From Gemmatimonadota bacterium (GTDB taxonomy: Bacteria; Gemmatimonadota; Gemmatimonadetes; Palauibacterales; KS3-K002), in contig JACQVD010000162.1 in the NCBI GenBank assembly GCA_016209945.1, positions 1 to 32,541 on the forward strand: 32,541 bases of DNA. Reading direction: 5' to 3'. The translations under genes were made by a program, and so were the position numbers. The notes under the pieces are model-generated. The model had not been told where the DNA came from. It saw only the letters and a list, made by a program, of their open reading frames with translations, and searched no databases. Shown here piece after piece: positions 5,141 through 28,024 of this stretch (positions are counted from its first letter, which is position 1; the number at the start of each line of letters is the position of its first letter).

Positions 5141-6853
5141 TCAGAACACGACGTGCCGGCCCTTCTGAGCCCGGCAGAACATCCGGATGGTGCTCTGCGC
5201 GTCGCCCACTCCCGTGTTCCCGCTGCTCCCGACACCCGACGCGCCGAACGCCTCCCACTCCAGGGCCGAGTCCGTCCCGTCGTTCTCCTTCAGCATCCCG
5301 CCGACCGTCTGCCGCGCCCGGTACAGCTTCCTGTCGTCCCGGGTGTAGATCGCCGTCGCCAGGTCGTGCGGGTTGTGAAAGAGCGAGAAGCGGAGGAATC
5401 CGTCGAACGAGGCCTCCATGGTGACGAGGATCGGCAGGAAGAACTCCTCTGAGGTGAGGTCGAACTCGCGCTCTCCCTTTCCATCCCAGTCACAGCGAAC
5501 ACGCGTCCCCGGCCTCAGGGGACCTAGGATCGCGGGTCGCACGACCTCGGCGTTCTGGGCGTACTCGCCCTCGGTGACCCGGCCGCCACGGCGGATGATC
5601 GGGACCCCGGCCTGCTCGGCAGCCCGGAGGATGTTGTCGAGCGTCGCCGCCTTGTGCGTCATGATGGGGCCGATCACCTCGGCCGCCTCCGTCGTACGGG
5701 GGTCGGCGACCTGCCAGCGGTCGATCTCGCGCTCCATGAGGGAGACGAGTCGGCCCAGCGTCTTGGGGCTCGCCGCCACCCCGTGCAGGCTCGTGCACTT
5801 GTGCGTGGAGAGCGATAGGAACGAGTACGTGAGTCGCTTCGCGATCCCTGCCAGGTCGTCGTCGCTGTAGCCGTCGTCGATCCACGCCCAGTTGCACCCC
5901 CCGCCCTCGAACCAGAGCCGCCCGAGTCCCCGGTCGCCCTGGATCGCCGCCGCCGTCTTGTCCGATCCTGTGATGCTCACCACGCGAATCCGCGGGTCGA
6001 TGGGCAGCGAGCCGACCTTGTGGCCGAACCCCTCGATCTTCTGCACGACCCGGGGATCCGCTCCGGCTACGAGCCACATGCGAACGAGCGTGGTGTTCGT
6101 GATGGCGGCGCCCGAGTGCCCCTTGAAGATGAAGGGGGAGCCGGAGAGGTAGCAGCCGACCATCTGGATCCCGGGGATCCCGTAGATGAAGTTCATCGGC
6201 GTGATGATGGCCGCGGGCCCCGCGGGGATGTACTCGTTCTTCCAGTAGGTGTGCCCCTCGATCATCGTGGGGACAAGGTCGCCCTGCATCGCCTTGTCGG
6301 CGGCGCCCTCCATGTGGTCGGCGGCGCGCTTCGCCTCCCAGAAGTCCTTCTGCGCCTCGAGCTGCGTCTTCGGGATCTGGTGCCGGATCTCCCGGACGCA
6401 CTCTTCTCGGAAATGGTGCAGGAGCCTCGAGAAGTTCTTGACGACCCACTTCCGGTACTGGAGCGTCTCGTTCGCCCACTCCAGGGACGACCAGAAGGCC
6501 CAGGCGGCGGCTACGGCCTCGTCCACCTCCGGGGCGTTCGAGTCGGGGATCTCCACGAGTCGCACCCGGCGGTCGAAGTGGGCCGGGAGAACCGCCGTCT
6601 GCTTCTTCGTCTTCCACTCTCCCGCGATGAGGTTCCGGGTCTGGACCGCTGGGTCGGTCGGCGTCTCGGGGAGGGAGGTGTAGCAGAAGATGTACGACCG
6701 CAGTGCCTCCATCTCGGCGTCGGAGAGGAGCGGGGCGTAGAGCGACCACTCGCTGCGGCGATCGCGATAGAGGGCGGCGAGCGGGTCGGGGCCCAGCTGC
6801 CCCCGGCGCTGGAACTCTTCAATGGACTCCGACAGGGACGTGAGATCGAGCAT
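5141..6853 (-). CDS. Aldehyde dehydrogenase family protein (1-pyrroline-5-carboxylate dehydrogenase-like)
   Basis: ITPMNFIYGIPGIQMVGCYLSGSPFIFKGHS, VVSITGSDKTA, WFEGGGCNWAWIDDG, STHKCTSLHGV (candidate catalytic Cys), EEFFLPILVTM. Confidence 0.85.
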   Translation of the reverse strand: MLDLTSLSESIEEFQRRGQLGPDPLAALYRDRRSEWSLYAPLLSDAEMEALRSYIFCYTSLPETPTDPAVQTRNLIAGEWKTKKQTAVLPAHFDRRVRLVEIPDSNAPEVDEAVAAAWAFWSSLEWANETLQYRKWVVKNFSRLLHHFREECVREIRHQIPKTQLEAQKDFWEAKRAADHMEGAADKAMQGDLVPTMIEGHTYWKNEYIPAGPAAIITPMNFIYGIPGIQMVGCYLSGSPFIFKGHSGAAITNTTLVRMWLVAGADPRVVQKIEGFGHKVGSLPIDPRIRVVSITGSDKTAAAIQGDRGLGRLWFEGGGCNWAWIDDGYSDDDLAGIAKRLTYSFLSLSTHKCTSLHGVAASPKTLGRLVSLMEREIDRWQVADPRTTEAAEVIGPIMTHKAATLDNILRAAEQAGVPIIRRGGRVTEGEYAQNAEVVRPAILGPLRPGTRVRCDWDGKGEREFDLTSEEFFLPILVTMEASFDGFLRFSLFHNPHDLATAIYTRDDRKLYRARQTVGGMLKENDGTDSALEWEAFGASGVGSSGNTGVGDAQSTIRMFCRAQKGRHVVF

Positions 6854-6959
6854 ATCCGCGAATCCTCCTAGGCCCTCCTGTGGTGCCCTGATTCTGGACC
6901 GCGGCGCTCTGGGAGCGCCTGCGCCCGAGACATTCCACGCGTCCCCCGAAATCTAGCCC

Positions 6960-7020
6960 GCAAGGGCAGGCTCGAACACCGTAACCCCACCCATTCGGGT
7001 GGTCCACTACCCGCCCTTGC
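6960..7020. repeat. Nested inverted repeats in the ALDH-rbcL divergent intergenic region
   Basis: Outer GCAAGGGC(6960-6967)/GCCCTTGC(7013-7020); inner perfect hairpin CCACCC-ATTC-GGGTGG (6987-7002). Confidence 0.5.
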
Positions 7021-7068
7021 CTAGGCGTTTGGGCGTCGCGGGGCGGCCGCATCCAATGTATCGTGTGA

Positions 7069-7086
7069 TTGTGACAAATTTCACAA
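7069..7086. promoter_or_regulatory. CRP/FNR-superfamily-type palindromic operator
   Basis: TTGTGA-caaatt-TCACAA, a perfect match to the TGTGA-N6-TCACA half-site arrangement, 38 bp upstream of the rbcL ATG. Confidence 0.6.
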
Positions 7087-7124
7087 ACCGCGGGTAGAGA
7101 CGCTGCAGCCTACGGAGAGTGCGC

Positions 7125-8501
7125 ATGCCGGGCACGCAGACCGTGAAACGACCGAGACCGATCGAGTCCATGGCGGCACCGCGCTTTGCGGCGGGCGTGC
7201 GCCCCTATCGCGAGGCGTACTGGGATCCGGGGTACGAGCCGAACCCGACCGATATCCTGTGCGCCTTCCGGATCCAACCGAAGCCCGGCGTGGACTTTGT
7301 CGAGGCCGCGGCCGCGATAGCGGCGGAGTCGAGCACGGGGACGTGGACCGAGGTGTGGTCGAACGCGCTCACGGAGATCGAGCGGTACAAGGCGCGCTGC
7401 TACCGGATCGAGGGCGACATCGCCTACATCGCCTACCCGATCGATCTCTTCGAGGAGGGATCGATCGTCAACATCATGTCCTCGGTGGTCGGGAACGTCT
7501 TCGGGTTCAAGGCGGTCGCTGCCCTCAAGCTCGAGGACATGCGCATCCCGTACGCCCTCGTGAAGACGTTTCCGGGGCCGACCACGGGGATCGAGAACGA
7601 GCGCGCGCGGCTCAACAAATACGGCCGGCCTCTCCTCGGCGGCACGGTCAAGCCGAAGCTGGGGCTCTCGCCGCGGCCCTATGCGAAGGTGGTCTACGAG
7701 TGCCTCGTCGGCGGCCTCGACACGACCAAAGACGACGAGAACATGAACAGCCAGCCGTTCAACCGCTGGCGCGACCGCTTCCTCTTCGTGATGGAGGCGG
7801 TGAGGAAAGCGGAGGCGGAGACCGGCGAGGCGAAGGGGCACTGGCTGAACGTGACGGCGCCGACCACGGAGGACGCGCTTGAGCGCACGGAATACGCGGC
7901 GCAACTCGGCAGCCGGTACATCATGAGCGACTACCTGACGATGGGGTTCGCGGCGCACCAGAGTGTCGTGAACCGCGCGGTGAAGCTGGGCCTCATGGTG
8001 CATGTGCACCGGGCCATGCACGCCGTCATCGACCGGCAGAAGCATCACGGGATTTCGTTCCTTGTCCTTGCCAAGTGGCTGCGGCTCGCGGGCGGCGACC
8101 ACCTGCACACCGGGACTGTCGTCGGAAAGCTGGAAGGCGATCGGGCAGCGACGATGGCGATCGCGGACATGCTGCGGAAGGACGTCGTGCCCGCGAACCC
8201 CAGCGTGGGCCTCTATTTCGACCAGGAGTGGGCGAGCCTCAAGACCGTGTTCCCGGTGGCCTCGGGCGGGATTCACGTGCACCACATCCCGGCCCTGTAT
8301 GCCATCTACGGGAACGACGCGTTCTGGCTCTTCGGCGGGGGCACCCACGGCCACCCGGGTGGAAGCCGGGCGGGCGCCAGGGCGAACCGTGTGGCCACGG
8401 AGGCGATCGCGCAGGGCTTGACGCTGGAGCAGGCCGCCAAGGACTGCCCGGAGCTCCGGGAGGCGATGGAGCTCTGGAAGGACATCTCGTTCGAAGACTG
8501 A
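7125..8501 (+). CDS. rbcL: Ribulose-1,5-bisphosphate carboxylase/oxygenase large subunit (form I-like, no small subunit adjacent)
   Basis: [67 protein letters not shown] (carbamylation K and DDE), [34 protein letters not shown] (loop 6 K), [28 protein letters not shown] at 7125 has SD ACGGAG. Confidence 0.95.
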
Positions 8502-15699: not shown

Positions 15700-16530
15700 G
15701 TGGCGACGCCCGGGATCGTTACGCTCCTCACCGACTTCGGAACCGCGGACGGCTTCGTGGCCGCGATGAAGGGCGTCATCCTCTCGATCGCGCCGCAGGC
15801 CCGGGTGATCGACGCCGTCCACGACATCGCTCCAGGCGATGTGGAAGCGGCTGCGTGGGTGCTGGACCAGTACTTCTTCCTCTATCCCGAGGGCACGGTC
15901 CATGTAGCCGTGGTGGATCCCGGCGTCGGGACCGAGCGCCGAGCGCTGGCGGCTCGCCTGGAGGGTCGGTACCTCGTCGCTCCTGACAATGGGATCGGCA
16001 CGCGGGTCTTTCGGCGCGCGGCGCGCCTGGAGTGTGTGAGCATCGAGAATCCGACGTTTATGCGGCCGGAGATCTCACGCACGTTCCACGGCCGCGACAT
16101 CTTCGCCCCTGCGGCCGCCCATCTCGCTAGCGGCGTCCCGTTGGGCGAGCTGGGCCCGGTCCTCCCGGATCCCGTGCGGCTGGATCTTCCGGAGCCCCGC
16201 AGGATCGAGGGCGAGGACGGCGGGCCCGTTCGCCTCGAGGGCCACGTGGTCCACGTGGACCGCTTCGGCAATCTGATCACCGACATCCCCGCCGCCTGGC
16301 TGGAATCGCACTCGTGGGTCGTCTCGCTTGAGAAGGCCGGTGGAGCGTCGTCGGTTCAGCAGGTACCGCTCCGGCGCACGTACGGCGAGGTTGCGCGCGG
16401 TGAGCTGGTGGCCGTGATCGGGTCGATGGGGACGCTCGAAGTCGCGGTTCGTGAAGGATCTGCTGCCGCGGCGCTCGCTGTCGGGCGTCGCGCGCGGGTG
16501 CTCTGCGAGGTGGCGGTTTCGCCAGGGTAA
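15700..16530 (+). CDS. SAM hydrolase/SAM-dependent halogenase family protein (DUF62)
   Basis: IVTLLTDFGTADGFVAAMKGVI, HVAVVDPGVGTERR, LVAPDNGIGT, FHGRDIFAPAAAHLA, VDRFGNLITDI. Confidence 0.92.
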   Translation: MATPGIVTLLTDFGTADGFVAAMKGVILSIAPQARVIDAVHDIAPGDVEAAAWVLDQYFFLYPEGTVHVAVVDPGVGTERRALAARLEGRYLVAPDNGIGTRVFRRAARLECVSIENPTFMRPEISRTFHGRDIFAPAAAHLASGVPLGELGPVLPDPVRLDLPEPRRIEGEDGGPVRLEGHVVHVDRFGNLITDIPAAWLESHSWVVSLEKAGGASSVQQVPLRRTYGEVARGELVAVIGSMGTLEVAVREGSAAAALAVGRRARVLCEVAVSPG

Positions 16531-22034: not shown

Positions 22035-22153
22035 CGAGCCTTCCGCAGACGGTGTTCCTCCACACCTGCCGCACCCTACGTGGTCCCCGCGCCCGCGGTT
22101 TCGGCGCGTGTTGCTGCCAGGCGGCCGCGTCGGTAACTTCCGCGCGCACCGCG

Positions 22154-22894
22154 ATGCCCAAGACCCATCCCGTCTCGTCGCCCGTCTACGCGCGAGGTTC
22201 CGAGAAGGCGGCCCAGGTCCGGGCGATGTTCTCGGCGATCGCTCCGCGCTACGATGTCCTGAACCATCTCCTGAGCCTGAACCTGGATCGAAGGTGGCGT
22301 CGCCGCGCCGTGGACCGCCTCGCCTGGGAGCGGGCGCCTGCGGGCGTGTATCTGGACGCGTGCAGCGGTACGTTCGATCTCGCCCTGGAGCTCGCGCGCC
22401 GGCCCGCGTTCACCGGCGCCGTCTTGGGTGTCGATTTCTCGGGCCCCATGCTGCGGCAGGGTCTCCGGAAGATTGCGGGCACTCGCGTTCGCCCGGTGTG
22501 TGCCGACGCGCTCGATCTCCCGTTTCCGGATCGGAGCCTCGACGGTGCCATGGTCGCGTTCGGGATCCGCAATCTGGCGGATCTCACGGCCGGCTTCCGG
22601 GAACTGAGTCGTGTGCTTCGCCGCGGCGCCCGCCTCGTCGTCCTGGAGTTCGCGACGCCGGCCCGAGGACCGTGGCGCGGCGTCTACCTCTTGTATTTCA
22701 GGCGCGTGCTTCCCGTGGTCGGACGCTGGATTTCGCAACATAACTTCGCGTATCGCTACCTTCCAGAGTCCGTCCTCCTCTTCGAGTCGCCCGAGGAGCT
22801 GGGCGATACGATGCGATCGGCGGGCTTCGAGGGCGTTGCGATCGAGCGCCTGACGGGCGGCGCCGTCGCCCTCCTGCGCGGGGAGAGGGCCTGA
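22154..22894 (+). CDS. UbiE/MenG-family quinone methyltransferase
   Basis: VRAMFSAIAPRYDVLNHLLSLNLDRRWRR; YLDACSGTFDLALEL; DGAMVAFGIRNLADLTAGFRELSRVLRRGARLVVLEF. Confidence 0.93.
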   Translation: MPKTHPVSSPVYARGSEKAAQVRAMFSAIAPRYDVLNHLLSLNLDRRWRRRAVDRLAWERAPAGVYLDACSGTFDLALELARRPAFTGAVLGVDFSGPMLRQGLRKIAGTRVRPVCADALDLPFPDRSLDGAMVAFGIRNLADLTAGFRELSRVLRRGARLVVLEFATPARGPWRGVYLLYFRRVLPVVGRWISQHNFAYRYLPESVLLFESPEELGDTMRSAGFEGVAIERLTGGAVALLRGERA

Positions 22895-24388
22895 GTGGCA
22901 TACCGCAACCTCCGTGAGTTCCTAACGGATCTCGAGCGCCGCGGGGAGCTCGTGCGCGTCCGGCGGCCGGTCTCCGTGGATCGCGAGATCACCGAGATCG
23001 CCGACCGGTGCATGAAGAGCGATGGCGGCGGGCCCGCGCTCCTGTTCGAAGACGCGCGCCTGCTCGATGGGTCGAGGAGTGCATTCCCGGTCGCCATCAA
23101 CCTATTCGGCAGTCACACACGGATGGGCATGGCGCTCGGGATCGAGCGCCTCGACGAGATCGGCCGGCGCATCGAGGAACTCCTGAAGCTCGGGATCCCG
23201 GAAGGGTTCGTCGAGAAGCTCGCGCTCCTTCCCAAGCTGGCCGAGCTCGCGAAGTACCCGCCGCGCAGGGAGAAGGGGAAGCCGCCCTGCCAGGAGGTCG
23301 TGCTGCGCGGGGACGACGCGGACACGACGCGGCTCCCGCACCTCAAGTGCTGGCCGGAGGACGGCGGCGCGTACATCACCTTCCCGATGGTGGTGACGGT
23401 GGATCCGCGGACGGGAACCCGGAACGTCGGCCTCTACCGGATCCAGATCCTCGACGCGCGGCGGCTCGCCATGCACTGGCAGCGGCATAAGGTGGGCGCT
23501 GCCCACTGGCGGGAGATGGGCGCCCGGGGCGAGCGCATGCCAGTGGCGATCGCGCTGGGCGCGGACCCGGCGACGATGTACAGCGCGAGCGCCCCTCTCC
23601 CGCCTCAGGTGGACGAGTACATCTTCGCCGGGTTCCTGCGGCGCGAGCCCGTCCCCCTGGCGAGGTGTGTGACCTCGGATCTCCTGGTCCCTGCGGAGTC
23701 GGAGATCGTGATCGAGGGGAGCATCGACCCCGCGGAGCCCCTCGTCATGGAGGGCCCGTTTGGCGACCATACGGGCTTCTATTCCCTCGCCGACCTCTAT
23801 CCGTGCGTGCATGTGGAGGCGATCACGCACCGCAGGGACGCCATCTACCCGGCGACGATCGTCGGCCGGCCGCCGATGGAGGACTACTACCTCGGCCACG
23901 CCACGGAGCGGATCTTCCTCCCGCTCATCCGCACGGTGCTCCCCGAGGTGGTGGACATCCACATGCCGCCCGAGGGGATCTTCCACAACCTCGTGTTCGT
24001 GGGCATCGACAAGCAGTATCCCGGCCACGCGTGGAAGGTGATGCACGGGCTCTGGGGGATGGGCCTCCTGTCGCTCGCCAAGGTGATCGTCGTCGTGGAT
24101 CGCGACACGGATGTGCAGAACACCGAGGAGGTGTGGTGGGTGGCGCTCAACCACATCGACCCGGAGCGCGACGTGCGCTTCGTCCTCGGGCCGATGGATG
24201 TCCTCGATCACTCCTCGAGGGCGTTCACGTTCGGATCGAAGATGGGGATCGATGCCACCCGGAAATGGCAGGAGGAGGGGTTCGAGCGCGAGTGGCCGGG
24301 GAGGATCGTCATGGACGAAGCCACGAAGCAGACGATCGACCGCCTCTGGCCGGAGTTGGGGATCCGGCTGCGGGGGCGCGGGGAATGA
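22895..24388 (+). CDS. UbiD-family decarboxylase
   Basis: [78 protein letters not shown]. Confidence 0.95.
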
Positions 24389-26529
24389 CGGGCAACGGCG
24401 GCGTCTCCGACCGCCCCGCAAGCCGGCGGGAGCTGCCCCAGAGGCTCGTCCTCTTCGGTGGAGGCGCTGCCCTTGTCCTCGTCGGGGTTGCGGTCGCGGG
24501 GTCGCTCCGCGTGGTTGAGCGCGTGCTCGTCCCCGCGGTCGAGGATCGGATGCGTGAGACGGCGACGCGCGTGGCGGACGTGGTCGAGCGTGAGGTGCGG
24601 GCTGCGCAGGACGCGCTGGCCCAGCTTGCGGCGTCACCGGTGCTCGCCGCCGCGGCGCTGGAAGGGGCGCGGCGGGCGGCCGACAGGGGCCTGCCGGCGC
24701 TGTCGGTGGAGCAGGCAGAGGCCCTGGCACCGCCTTCGAAATCGCTGGACGTCGATCCCGGCGCGTCCGACTACGTCCGGCGCGTGCAGTCGGCGTCGAA
24801 GTTCGCCGAGCTGTTCGTCACGGACGTGTACGGCCACGTCGTCGCGGGGAGCAATCCGACGGAGGACTTCGTCCAGCGCGACGAGGTGTGGTGGCAGAGG
24901 GCCGCGGCGGGCGAGCTCTTCGTTTCCGATGCGCGGTGGGATCCCTCGGCGCAGGTCCCCTCCCTCGAGATGGCGGCACCGTTGCGCACGCAGGAGGGCG
25001 CTCCGCCGGTCGGTGTGGTGAAGGCGGTGTTCGATCTCACGGCACTGTGGGCGGCCGTGCAGGCGATGCAGCCGGGTCGCGGCGGATATGTGCAGATCCT
25101 CGATGCGGCGGGCCGGATCGTCGCTGATCCCGATCGGGCACGCGTCATGGAGGCCTTTCCGCAGACGGCGCTCCTGCGGGCGCCAGCGGGGATGATCGTA
25201 AAGGCGGCTGGGGCGGGAGGCGTTCGGGAGGTGGGAGCGGTGCAACGCGCGCTGCGTGGCCGCTGGACGGTGCTCGCGTGGCTGCCTGAAGACGAGGCGT
25301 ACCGCGCGGTCGAGCGTGCGCGGGCCACGATCCTTGGCACGGCGGGGCTCGTGCTCCTCTTGGCCGGGACGACCGTCGTGCTGGCCGGCTCGTGGGTCGC
25401 GCGGCGGGTGACGGCGCCCGTCCGTGCGCTTGCCAGCGGGGCCCGCCGCGTGGCCGAAGGGGACCTTACGGCGCCGGTGCCTTCCGCGGGTGCCGTCCCC
25501 GAGGTTGCCGGCTTGGCCCGCGCGCTGGGTGCGATGGTGGACCGGCTGCGTGGGCTCGTGTCGTCGATCGTGGGGTCCGCGGTCGAGACGGAGCGGCGGT
25601 CCCATGAGATCGGCGCGGCCGTCGCGCAGTTCAGGGCGGCAACCGCGGAGATGCGCACGATGGTCTCGCGCCTCACGCGGGACGCGTCCGCTCACTCGGA
25701 TGCGCTCGCGCGGGTGGAAACCTCGGCGGAGGCGATGCGAACGCTTGCGGCACGGCTCGCGGAGGGGTCGGAGCAGTCGAAGGAACGGAGCGCCCGGCTG
25801 CGGCTCCTGGCCGAGCGACATCGCACGGAGGTCGAGCAGAGCCGGACTGTGATCCAGGCGATGGCGGAGCAGGCGATGCAGGCCGCGGCGCGGCTGCGGG
25901 AGTTCGTCGAAGCGTCGCGTGAGCTCGCTGAGTTCGTGGAGGTGATCCGCGGGCTCGCCCGCAAGACGAATCTCCTGGCGTTGAACGCGGCGATCGAAGC
26001 CGCGCGGGCGGGGGAGGACGCCCGGGGATTCGCGGCGCTGGCGGAGGACATCCGCAAACTCTCCGAGCAGGCGGGCCAGGCCGCGGAGCGCGTTCGCAAG
26101 GCGTCGGGCTCGCTCCTGGAACGAGTCGAGGACGCGCGCGGAGCGGTCGAGCAGGTGAACGAGACGACACAGACGATCGACTCGGTCGTCCGTGCCATGG
26201 GCGAGAGCTTCGAGCAGGTCACCCGCGGGATGGCAGACGCCGAGGCGTGGGCGGCGGACGTGGCGGGTGCGAGCCACGAGTTGGACGCGAGCGTCGGGGG
26301 GATGGCACCGCGTCTCGCGGAGCTCGCGGCGGGGATCCAGGAGTTCGTCGCCGCCATGGAGCAGATGGCGGCCGCGATGGGGCAGCAGACGACCTCGACG
26401 GGGGAGATCGCAGGGGCGCTCACGTCGCTGAACGAGGGCGCAGCCGAGCTCGCGCGGCTCGCCGCGCTGTTCAAGACGTCATCGACGGAGCGAGCGGTCG
26501 GCCCGGTGGCCGCGTCGGCGGATGGCTAG
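24385..26529 (+). CDS. Methyl-accepting chemotaxis protein
   Basis: Two TM segments flanking a periplasmic sensor region; HAMP-like segment; signalling tip [37 protein letters not shown]. Confidence 0.93.
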
Positions 26530-27424
26530 GGCCGAGCTCGAACCTCAGACCTTCACGGGCCGGGCGCGCTGGGTCGCGTACTCCAACCTGGTGCGGCTCC
26601 CGCACACGCTCTTCGCGCTCCCGTTCGCCCTCGTCGGGGCCACCCTGGCGTCCTACACGTATGGGGTGACGCTCCGCCAGGTCTTCTGGATCGTTGTCGC
26701 TTTCACCGCCGCGCGCTTCGCCGCGATGGCGTTCAACCGTGTCATCGATCGCGACTACGATGCGGCGAACCCGAGAACCCGGCTGCGCGAGATCCCGGCG
26801 AGACGGATCTCGGTGCGCGAGACGAAGATCGCCGTGGCGGTGGCGTCGGGCGTCTTCGTTCTCTCTGCGGCGATGCTGAACCCGCTCTGTCTCGCGCTCT
26901 CACCCATCGCCCTGGCGTGGCTTCTCCTGTACAGCTACGCGAAGCGGTTCACGACGTGGACGCATCTCGCCCTCGGGATCGCCGATGGGCTGGCGCCCGC
27001 GGGCGCCTACCTCGCGGTGTCGGGCGCATGGAGCGATCCGTGGGTGCTGTTGCCGCTGCTCGCTCTCGGCGTCGGTCTCTGGGTCGGCGGGTTCGATATC
27101 CTGTATGCGCTCCAGGACGTGGAGTTCGACCGCAGGGTCGGGCTGCGTTCGATCCCCGCTCGCTGGGGCGAGCGGGCTGGCGTGTGGTCGGCGCGGGTGT
27201 ACCAGGGGCTCGCGGTCGTGGCGCTCGCGGTGGCGGGCCTCGTCTATCCGGCGACAGGCGCTCTCTACTTCGCGGGAGTGGCGGTCGTTGCCGCGCTCCT
27301 CATCTACGAGCATTCTCTCGTTCGGCCCGGCGATCTCTCGCGGCTGAACGCCGCGTTCTTCAACGTCAACGCGATCATCTCCGTGATCTTTTCGGTTTTC
27401 GTGATCGCGGATCGGATGGTTTGA
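26522..27424 (+). CDS. UbiA-family prenyltransferase
   Basis: [70 protein letters not shown]. Confidence 0.95.
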
Positions 27425-27427
27425 TCG

Positions 27428-28024
27428 ATGTCGAACGCGTTGCCACTGGTCGTCGCCGTCACGGGAGCATCCGGAGCGCCGTACGCCGTCCGACTCCTGG
27501 ATGCGCTTGTGGGCGCAGGGCTGCCCCTCTACCTGATCGTATCCGGGCACGGGTGGCGGCTGCTCGAAATGGAGAGCGGGATCGCCGATCTCGCCGGGCT
27601 TCGCAAGGCCGTGGGCGGCGACTGGTCAGGGGTCCAAGTGTTCGACGACGGGGATCGCGGCGCCACGCCGGCCTCGGGATCCGCACCGACGCGCGGCATG
27701 GTCATCTGTCCGTGCTCTATGGGAACGCTGGCCGCGATCGCGCAGGGTCACTCGCGATCGCTCATCGAGCGCGCCGCGGATGTGACGCTCAAGGAGCGGC
27801 GCCGCCTCGTCCTGGTCCCGCGCGAGACGCCGCTCTCGGCCGTGCACCTGCGCAACATGCTCGCGGTGACACGGGCGGGTGCCGTCGTCCTCCCCGCGGC
27901 GCCCGGCTTCTACGGACGGCCCACATCGGTGCAGGACCTCGTGGATTTCGTCGTCGCCCGGGTCCTCGACCACCTCGGGGTCGAGCACCGCCTGGGAATG
28001 CGGTGGCGGTCGGGCGAGTGCTGA
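27428..28024 (+). CDS. ubiX: UbiX-family flavin prenyltransferase
   Basis: VAVTGASGAPYAVRLLDAL; MVICPCSMGTLAAIAQGHSRSLIERAADVTLKERRRLVLVPRETPLSAVHLRNML. Confidence 0.95.
   Translation: MSNALPLVVAVTGASGAPYAVRLLDALVGAGLPLYLIVSGHGWRLLEMESGIADLAGLRKAVGGDWSGVQVFDDGDRGATPASGSAPTRGMVICPCSMGTLAAIAQGHSRSLIERAADVTLKERRRLVLVPRETPLSAVHLRNMLAVTRAGAVVLPAAPGFYGRPTSVQDLVDFVVARVLDHLGVEHRLGMRWRSGEC

Follow-up and report, generated by a model that had tools for sequence, protein, structure and literature searches.

A candidate deep lineage of small-subunit-free form I-type RuBisCO in a Gemmatimonadota genome

Small-subunit-free relatives of form I RuBisCO

The route by which RuBisCO acquired a small subunit (SSU), and the reason for it, are still open questions, and work on them rests on resurrected ancestors and a few SSU-free lineages (forms I′, I-alpha, and I″), mostly from Chloroflexota. 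The SSU-free forms I′, I″, and I-alpha were described mainly from Chloroflexi (PMC9833052, PMC10135865, PMC12168267). The form I′ enzyme of Candidatus Promineofilum breve is an octamer of large subunits (L8) without RbcS (PMC10135865, PMC9833052), and its specificity factor of 36 is low (PMC9833052). The substitutions R269W, E271R, L273N, G158C, and L192I help to make a resurrected RuBisCO SSU-dependent (PMC11696622). AncL (PDB code 7qsv) is not a natural protein but a reconstruction of the L8 ancestor shared by forms I″ and I. The "Firmicutes Rubisco" of PDB code 8u66, which contains eight large-subunit chains, is taken here to be form I″, after the 2023 structure paper.

The window, the whole stretch of 32,541 nucleotides that was analysed, belongs to a metagenome-assembled genome (MAG) of the phylum Gemmatimonadota and contains an rbcL gene. 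The gene very probably encodes a genuine RuBisCO working without a small subunit, of a lineage that branched deeply and belongs neither to SSU-bearing form I nor to the described I′ clade. On the sequence data, its product (window RbcL) is best read as a new, separate deep lineage of SSU-free form I-type RuBisCO.

The rbcL gene and its product

The rbcL gene started with ATG, with a Shine-Dalgarno-like GGAG just upstream, and encoded 458 residues in an intact frame without an internal stop. A genome-wide search found this single rbcL in the host. In the profile search, window RbcL scored 652 bits against the RuBisCO large-subunit model NF003252 of NCBIfam (cut-off of 438) and fell below the cut-offs of the form II, form III, and form IV family models. 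The catalytic motifs were all present, comprising residues Lys176, Lys178, Lys202, Asp204, Glu205, His295-Arg296, His328, Lys335, Ser380, and Gly404–Gly406. Following established RuBisCO enzymology, Lys202 is presumably the carbamylated lysine, acting with Asp204 and Glu205, and Lys335 the loop-6 lysine. With the carbamylated lysine, the Mg ligands, the loop-6 lysine, and the phosphate-binding residues in place, the protein is predicted to be a catalytically competent RuBisCO in the sense of forms I–III. The first-pass annotation, which had described a form I-type large subunit with its catalytic motifs, was borne out on these points.

An AlphaFold model of window RbcL was built with 22 sequences and gave a pLDDT of 77.9. 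The model is silent on oligomers and only confirms the RuBisCO fold. AncL was among its best structural matches.

Organization of the operon

The genes around rbcL are listed in Table 1. The rbcL stop codon was separated from the prk start by exactly 21 nt, the spacing given by the first-pass annotation. The four genes rbcL, prk, tkt, and tal were placed on one strand with close spacing, which suggests a single operon; they are probably cotranscribed, and the sequence points to the divergent intergenic region as the probable site of the promoter. The order rbcL-prk-tkt was common to the window and several form I′ loci, and the adjacency of prk and tal was also found in the host's class.

Table 1. 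Features of the rbcL locus (positions in the window)
Feature	Coordinates	Strand	Basis
Aldehyde-dehydrogenase-like gene, divergent from rbcL	5141–6853	-	Pfam PF00171
Divergent intergenic region between the aldehyde-dehydrogenase-like gene and rbcL	6854–7124		Sequence
rbcL-like, form I-type RuBisCO large subunit without small subunit	7125–8501	+	ORF, NCBIfam, phylogeny, discriminating residues
prk, phosphoribulokinase; GTG start, 321 aa	8523–9488	+	Pfam PF00485; NCBIfam NF005655, 349 bits; tree
tkt, transketolase; GTG start overlapping the prk stop, 685 aa	9485–11542	+	NCBIfam TIGR00232, 875 bits (above cut-off); start read from sequence
tal, transaldolase; GTG start 2 nt past the tkt stop, about 370 aa	11545–12657	+	NCBIfam NF002881, 493 bits, and TIGR00876, 324 bits (both above cut-off)

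The roles of phosphoribulokinase (PRK), RuBisCO, transketolase, and transaldolase in the Calvin cycle are established. In the proposed pathway, PRK would make ribulose-1,5-bisphosphate, window RuBisCO would carboxylate it, and transketolase and transaldolase would rearrange the sugar phosphates; from this gene content we infer a Calvin-cycle function for the operon.

Elsewhere in the window, positions 22052–28024 contained genes for a ubiE-like methyltransferase, a UbiD-family menaquinone decarboxylase (TIGR03701), a methyl-accepting chemotaxis protein (MCP) with a dCache domain, a UbiA-like prenyltransferase, and a flavoprotein, a cluster that probably serves menaquinone synthesis. A SAM hydroxide adenosyltransferase (SAM hydrolase) family protein was encoded at 15700–16530.

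Search for a small-subunit gene

The searchable host genome gave no match to the small-subunit family PF00101 and no first-look candidate, and the same search found the small subunit of Synechococcus elongatus, used as a positive control. The host MAG comprises 1.73 Mb and is 83.5% complete (about 16% missing), with an estimated contamination of 0.03%. Masked sequence, read as N, occurred in 8 of the 40 contigs sampled, none longer than 2.8 kb, and made up 19 of the 323 kb sampled (5.9%), a share that lay beyond the PF00101 search. Since rbcS adjoined rbcL in nearly every SSU-type rbcL locus seen, a distant rbcS hidden in the masked part of the MAG is unlikely. At the locus itself, rbcL and prk were too close together for an rbcS to lie between them, which is also the case in SSU-free loci. 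The first-pass annotation had reported no rbcS-like ORF anywhere in the window, had proposed a profile search of the whole genome, and had named an rbcS elsewhere in the genome as a possible refutation; the local observation was upheld, and the search agreed with it throughout the searchable part.

These data bear on the view that the gene is a canonical form I rbcL and that its rbcS has been lost, is located elsewhere, or is absent from the assembled sequence. The incomplete MAG with its masked short contigs speaks for this view, as does the host class, where every form I rbcL with an informative neighbourhood had rbcS. The gene arrangement just described speaks against it, together with the tree and the residues given below, and overall it is very improbable.

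Phylogenetic placement

A maximum-likelihood tree of 54 rows was calculated with the LG+C20+F+G4 model and a form III-like outgroup; in this tree, the window lineage was represented by one sequence from one MAG and form I″ by one sequence, PDB code 8u66. From the base, the tree gave the pair L195/L211 (below all others, 97/93), then form I″, and then the I′ side and the form I side. L195 and L211, from Chloroflexota, are presumably I-alpha-like, a label that we assigned from their position in the tree. SSU-bearing form I formed a clade without window RbcL (99/100). In the best tree, window RbcL was the first branch on the I′ side, grouped with L153 and form I′ (94/90), and the Chloroflexota form I′ clade excluded it (100/99). 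When another alignment was used and L153 omitted, window RbcL stayed with I′ (95/95), and when the form III outgroup was omitted, it shifted to the base with low support.

Alternative placements were compared by the AU test. The first-pass annotation had named placement inside canonical form IA–ID as a possible refutation of its reading; placement with SSU-bearing form I (IA–ID and relatives) was rejected, both beside L010, an SSU-bearing relative (p = 9.8e-9), and inside form I above L010 (p = 4e-4). Four placements were not rejected: sister to SSU-bearing form I as a whole (p = 0.33), sister to 8u66 (p = 0.26, with a log-likelihood 20 lower than that of the best tree), below I, I′, I″, and L153 (p = 0.45), and with form I′ without L153 (p = 0.07, disfavoured). 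On the aligned sequences, it is thus firm that window RbcL falls neither within SSU-bearing form I nor within the form I′ crown, and a position as the first branch on the I′ side is the most likely one. The earlier proposal of a candidate SSU-free relative of form I held insofar as window RbcL fell outside SSU-bearing form I; it did not belong to the form I′ crown and did not group firmly with form I″ or the I-alpha-like pair.

It is rather unlikely that window RbcL is the closest known SSU-free relative of SSU-bearing form I, having branched outside Chloroflexota just before the SSU was gained. If this were true, the protein would be an extant step between AncL and AncLS, and ideas on how the small subunit arose could be tested on it directly.

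Diagnostic residues and the C-terminal insert

Discriminating columns were chosen without window RbcL as those with one state in at least 93% of 29 SSU-bearing sequences and at most 11% of 19 SSU-free sequences. At these 25 columns, the form I state was found at 2 positions in window RbcL, 0 in form I′, 2 in L153, 1 and 4 in the I-alpha-like sequences, 7 in form I″, and 23–25 in form I. Residues 158, 192, 269, 271, and 273 of window RbcL were Gly, Met, Arg, Val, and Leu, respectively, and none of the five carried the derived SSU-entrenching state. The C-terminal tail of form I was missing. A 12-residue insert of the C-terminal domain, EGRDILAEGREI, was present in form I″, AncL, and form I and was missing in window RbcL, form I′, L153, and the I-alpha-like sequences. 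The alignment of 8u66 was obtained with an artificial mixed sequence, which was used for that purpose only. A secondary loss of rbcS from form I was rejected on the tree and these residues.

When compared with form I′ (Anaerolineae, Chloroflexota; PDB code 6ura), window RbcL shared the lack of a small subunit in the neighbourhood and the (searchable) genome, the position of prk directly after rbcL, often followed by tkt in form I′, the missing insert, and the SSU-free states at the diagnostic sites. The identity was 66% to 6ura and about 70% at most to any I′ member. Window RbcL could be an ordinary form I′ enzyme, either one that diverged within the known Chloroflexota clade or one whose gene was recently transferred from there. 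Its position on the I′ side of the best tree, the gene order, and the missing insert would fit. However, the form I′ clade excluded it and L153 was nearer to that clade, only 3 of 27 I′-specific residues were shared, the identity was limited, the host phylum differed, the window prk belonged to another clade than the Chloroflexota type, and a grouping with I′ that leaves out L153 was disfavoured. A form I′ assignment is possible but doubtful.

Form I″ resembled window RbcL in branching deeply between forms III and I and in having a large subunit only, and the identity of 70% to 8u66 equalled that to the best I′ sequence. Membership of form I″ is compatible with this identity and with the AU test of the sister placement. 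The lower likelihood of that placement, for which the tree held a single form I″ sequence, argues against it, and 8u66 has the insert and seven form I states, whereas window RbcL has no insert and two such states. This assignment is improbable.

The I-alpha-like sequences were similar to window RbcL in the absence of rbcS, the adjacent rbcL and prk, and the lack of the insert, but they were only 54–58% identical to it and branched below everything else. Of the natural sequences compared, only 8u66 (82.5%) was closer to AncL than window RbcL (77.3% identity), although AncL has the insert that window RbcL lacks.

Host and origin of the operon

In the prk tree, the window gene clustered with prk genes of the host class (100/100). 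The window PRK was 60–66% identical to most PRKs of the host class (66% to that of G090); with those of Chloroflexota form I′ loci, the identity did not exceed 49%. The GC content of the window, 69.4%, fitted the other contigs of the host genome. The tetranucleotide correlation of the window with these contigs was 0.64–0.77, as among the contigs themselves, and mostly 0.2–0.6 with Chloroflexota loci. The closest rbcL relatives are mostly from Chloroflexota and contigs of a MAG can be misplaced, so the contig might have been mis-binned from a Chloroflexota bacterium. The grouping of prk with the host class and the fitting composition make this unlikely, the estimated contamination of the MAG also stands against it, and we regard mis-binning as very improbable.

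The genomes listed for the host phylum had no member in common with those of two Chloroflexota searches, although these two overlapped widely with each other, and on this basis the host is placed outside Chloroflexota, where nearly all SSU-free genes of the survey occurred. A 16S rRNA gene was absent from the MAG, and no plasmid record matched closely. With such a host, the rbcL was either inherited from very deep or replaced the canonical rbcLS of the class in place. Two histories fit: an SSU-free rbcL may have taken over the site of rbcLS within the native operon, or the SSU-free type may be an old inheritance that was replaced in the relatives. The SSU-bearing form I loci of the host class (G029, G197, G281, and others) had related prk genes (52–66%), with tal beside prk in three genomes. 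In contrast, their RbcL was only 53–62% identical to window RbcL, and they had an adjacent rbcS and form I residues. The window thus combines a prk native to the host class with an SSU-free-type rbcL in a putative Calvin-cycle operon, although relatives in the class carry rbcL with rbcS.

Two different prk genes were found in G090 of the host class (L131 and L132), in which pieces of rbcL also lay at the ends of two contigs; one of these pieces was divergently oriented to prk-tal.

Predicted assembly and significance

By analogy with form I′ of P. breve and resurrected AncL, window RuBisCO would assemble as a bare octamer and is probably L8. A low CO2/O2 specificity is expected by the same analogy, given the low specificity factor of the P. 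breve enzyme.

A natural candidate from another phylum, 77% identical to AncL and without its insert, adds a new point that can break long branches of the tree. Window RbcL could be used to check ancestral reconstructions and to test which states make the small subunit useful or necessary.

Relatives in the genome collection

The survey covered a collection of 84,980 species genomes. The closest relatives of window RbcL in the collection were Chloroflexota sequences and one contig of a "Planctomycetaceae" MAG, with identities of 64–72%. The next relative, L010, was 64% identical and had an adjacent rbcS, and the SSU-bearing form I sequences that followed were 57–61% identical. None of the form I′-type Chloroflexota genomes tested had rbcS. 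Nearly all genomes with form I rbcL had rbcS adjoining it; the exceptions were G686 and G358, in which the contig breaks off shortly past rbcL, and G812 and G963, which carry deep sequences.

Among 395 sampled genomes of the host phylum, a complete form I rbcL was found in 7 besides the host and fragments in 2, with rbcS in 8, and an SSU-free rbcL like that of the window was found in none of the others. The host order gave no rbcL match in its 42 other genomes (43 including the host), no close relative of window RbcL was found in 346 genomes of the host class, and none of its relatives was found in viral contigs.

Several of the sequences surveyed are of interest in their own right. L153 (L186:2771–4114, from G518) was a lone, long-branched SSU-free RuBisCO of the sampled Chloroflexota class, 67% identical to window RbcL; it branched as the sister of form I′ (100/94), and its genome was without rbcS. 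L195 (G963) and L211/L217 (G812) were RuBisCOs of rbcS-less Chloroflexota genomes with an adjacent prk, branching below I″, I′, and I. Two form I rbcL genes of Chloroflexota with an adjacent rbcS, L189 (G946) and L190 (G1082), were on long branches at 64–65% identity to window RbcL; these deep SSU-bearing sequences may help to root form I. The MAG labelled Planctomycetaceae (G002) had a form I′ rbcL contig and a separate contig with form I rbcL and rbcS (L002 and L137). The prk of its form I′ rbcL contig grouped with Chloroflexota form I′ prk, and this contig is probably mis-binned. Distant RuBisCO-like proteins, with about 30–37% identity, were common in the host class and in the Chloroflexota class, and were far commoner there than true form I rbcL.
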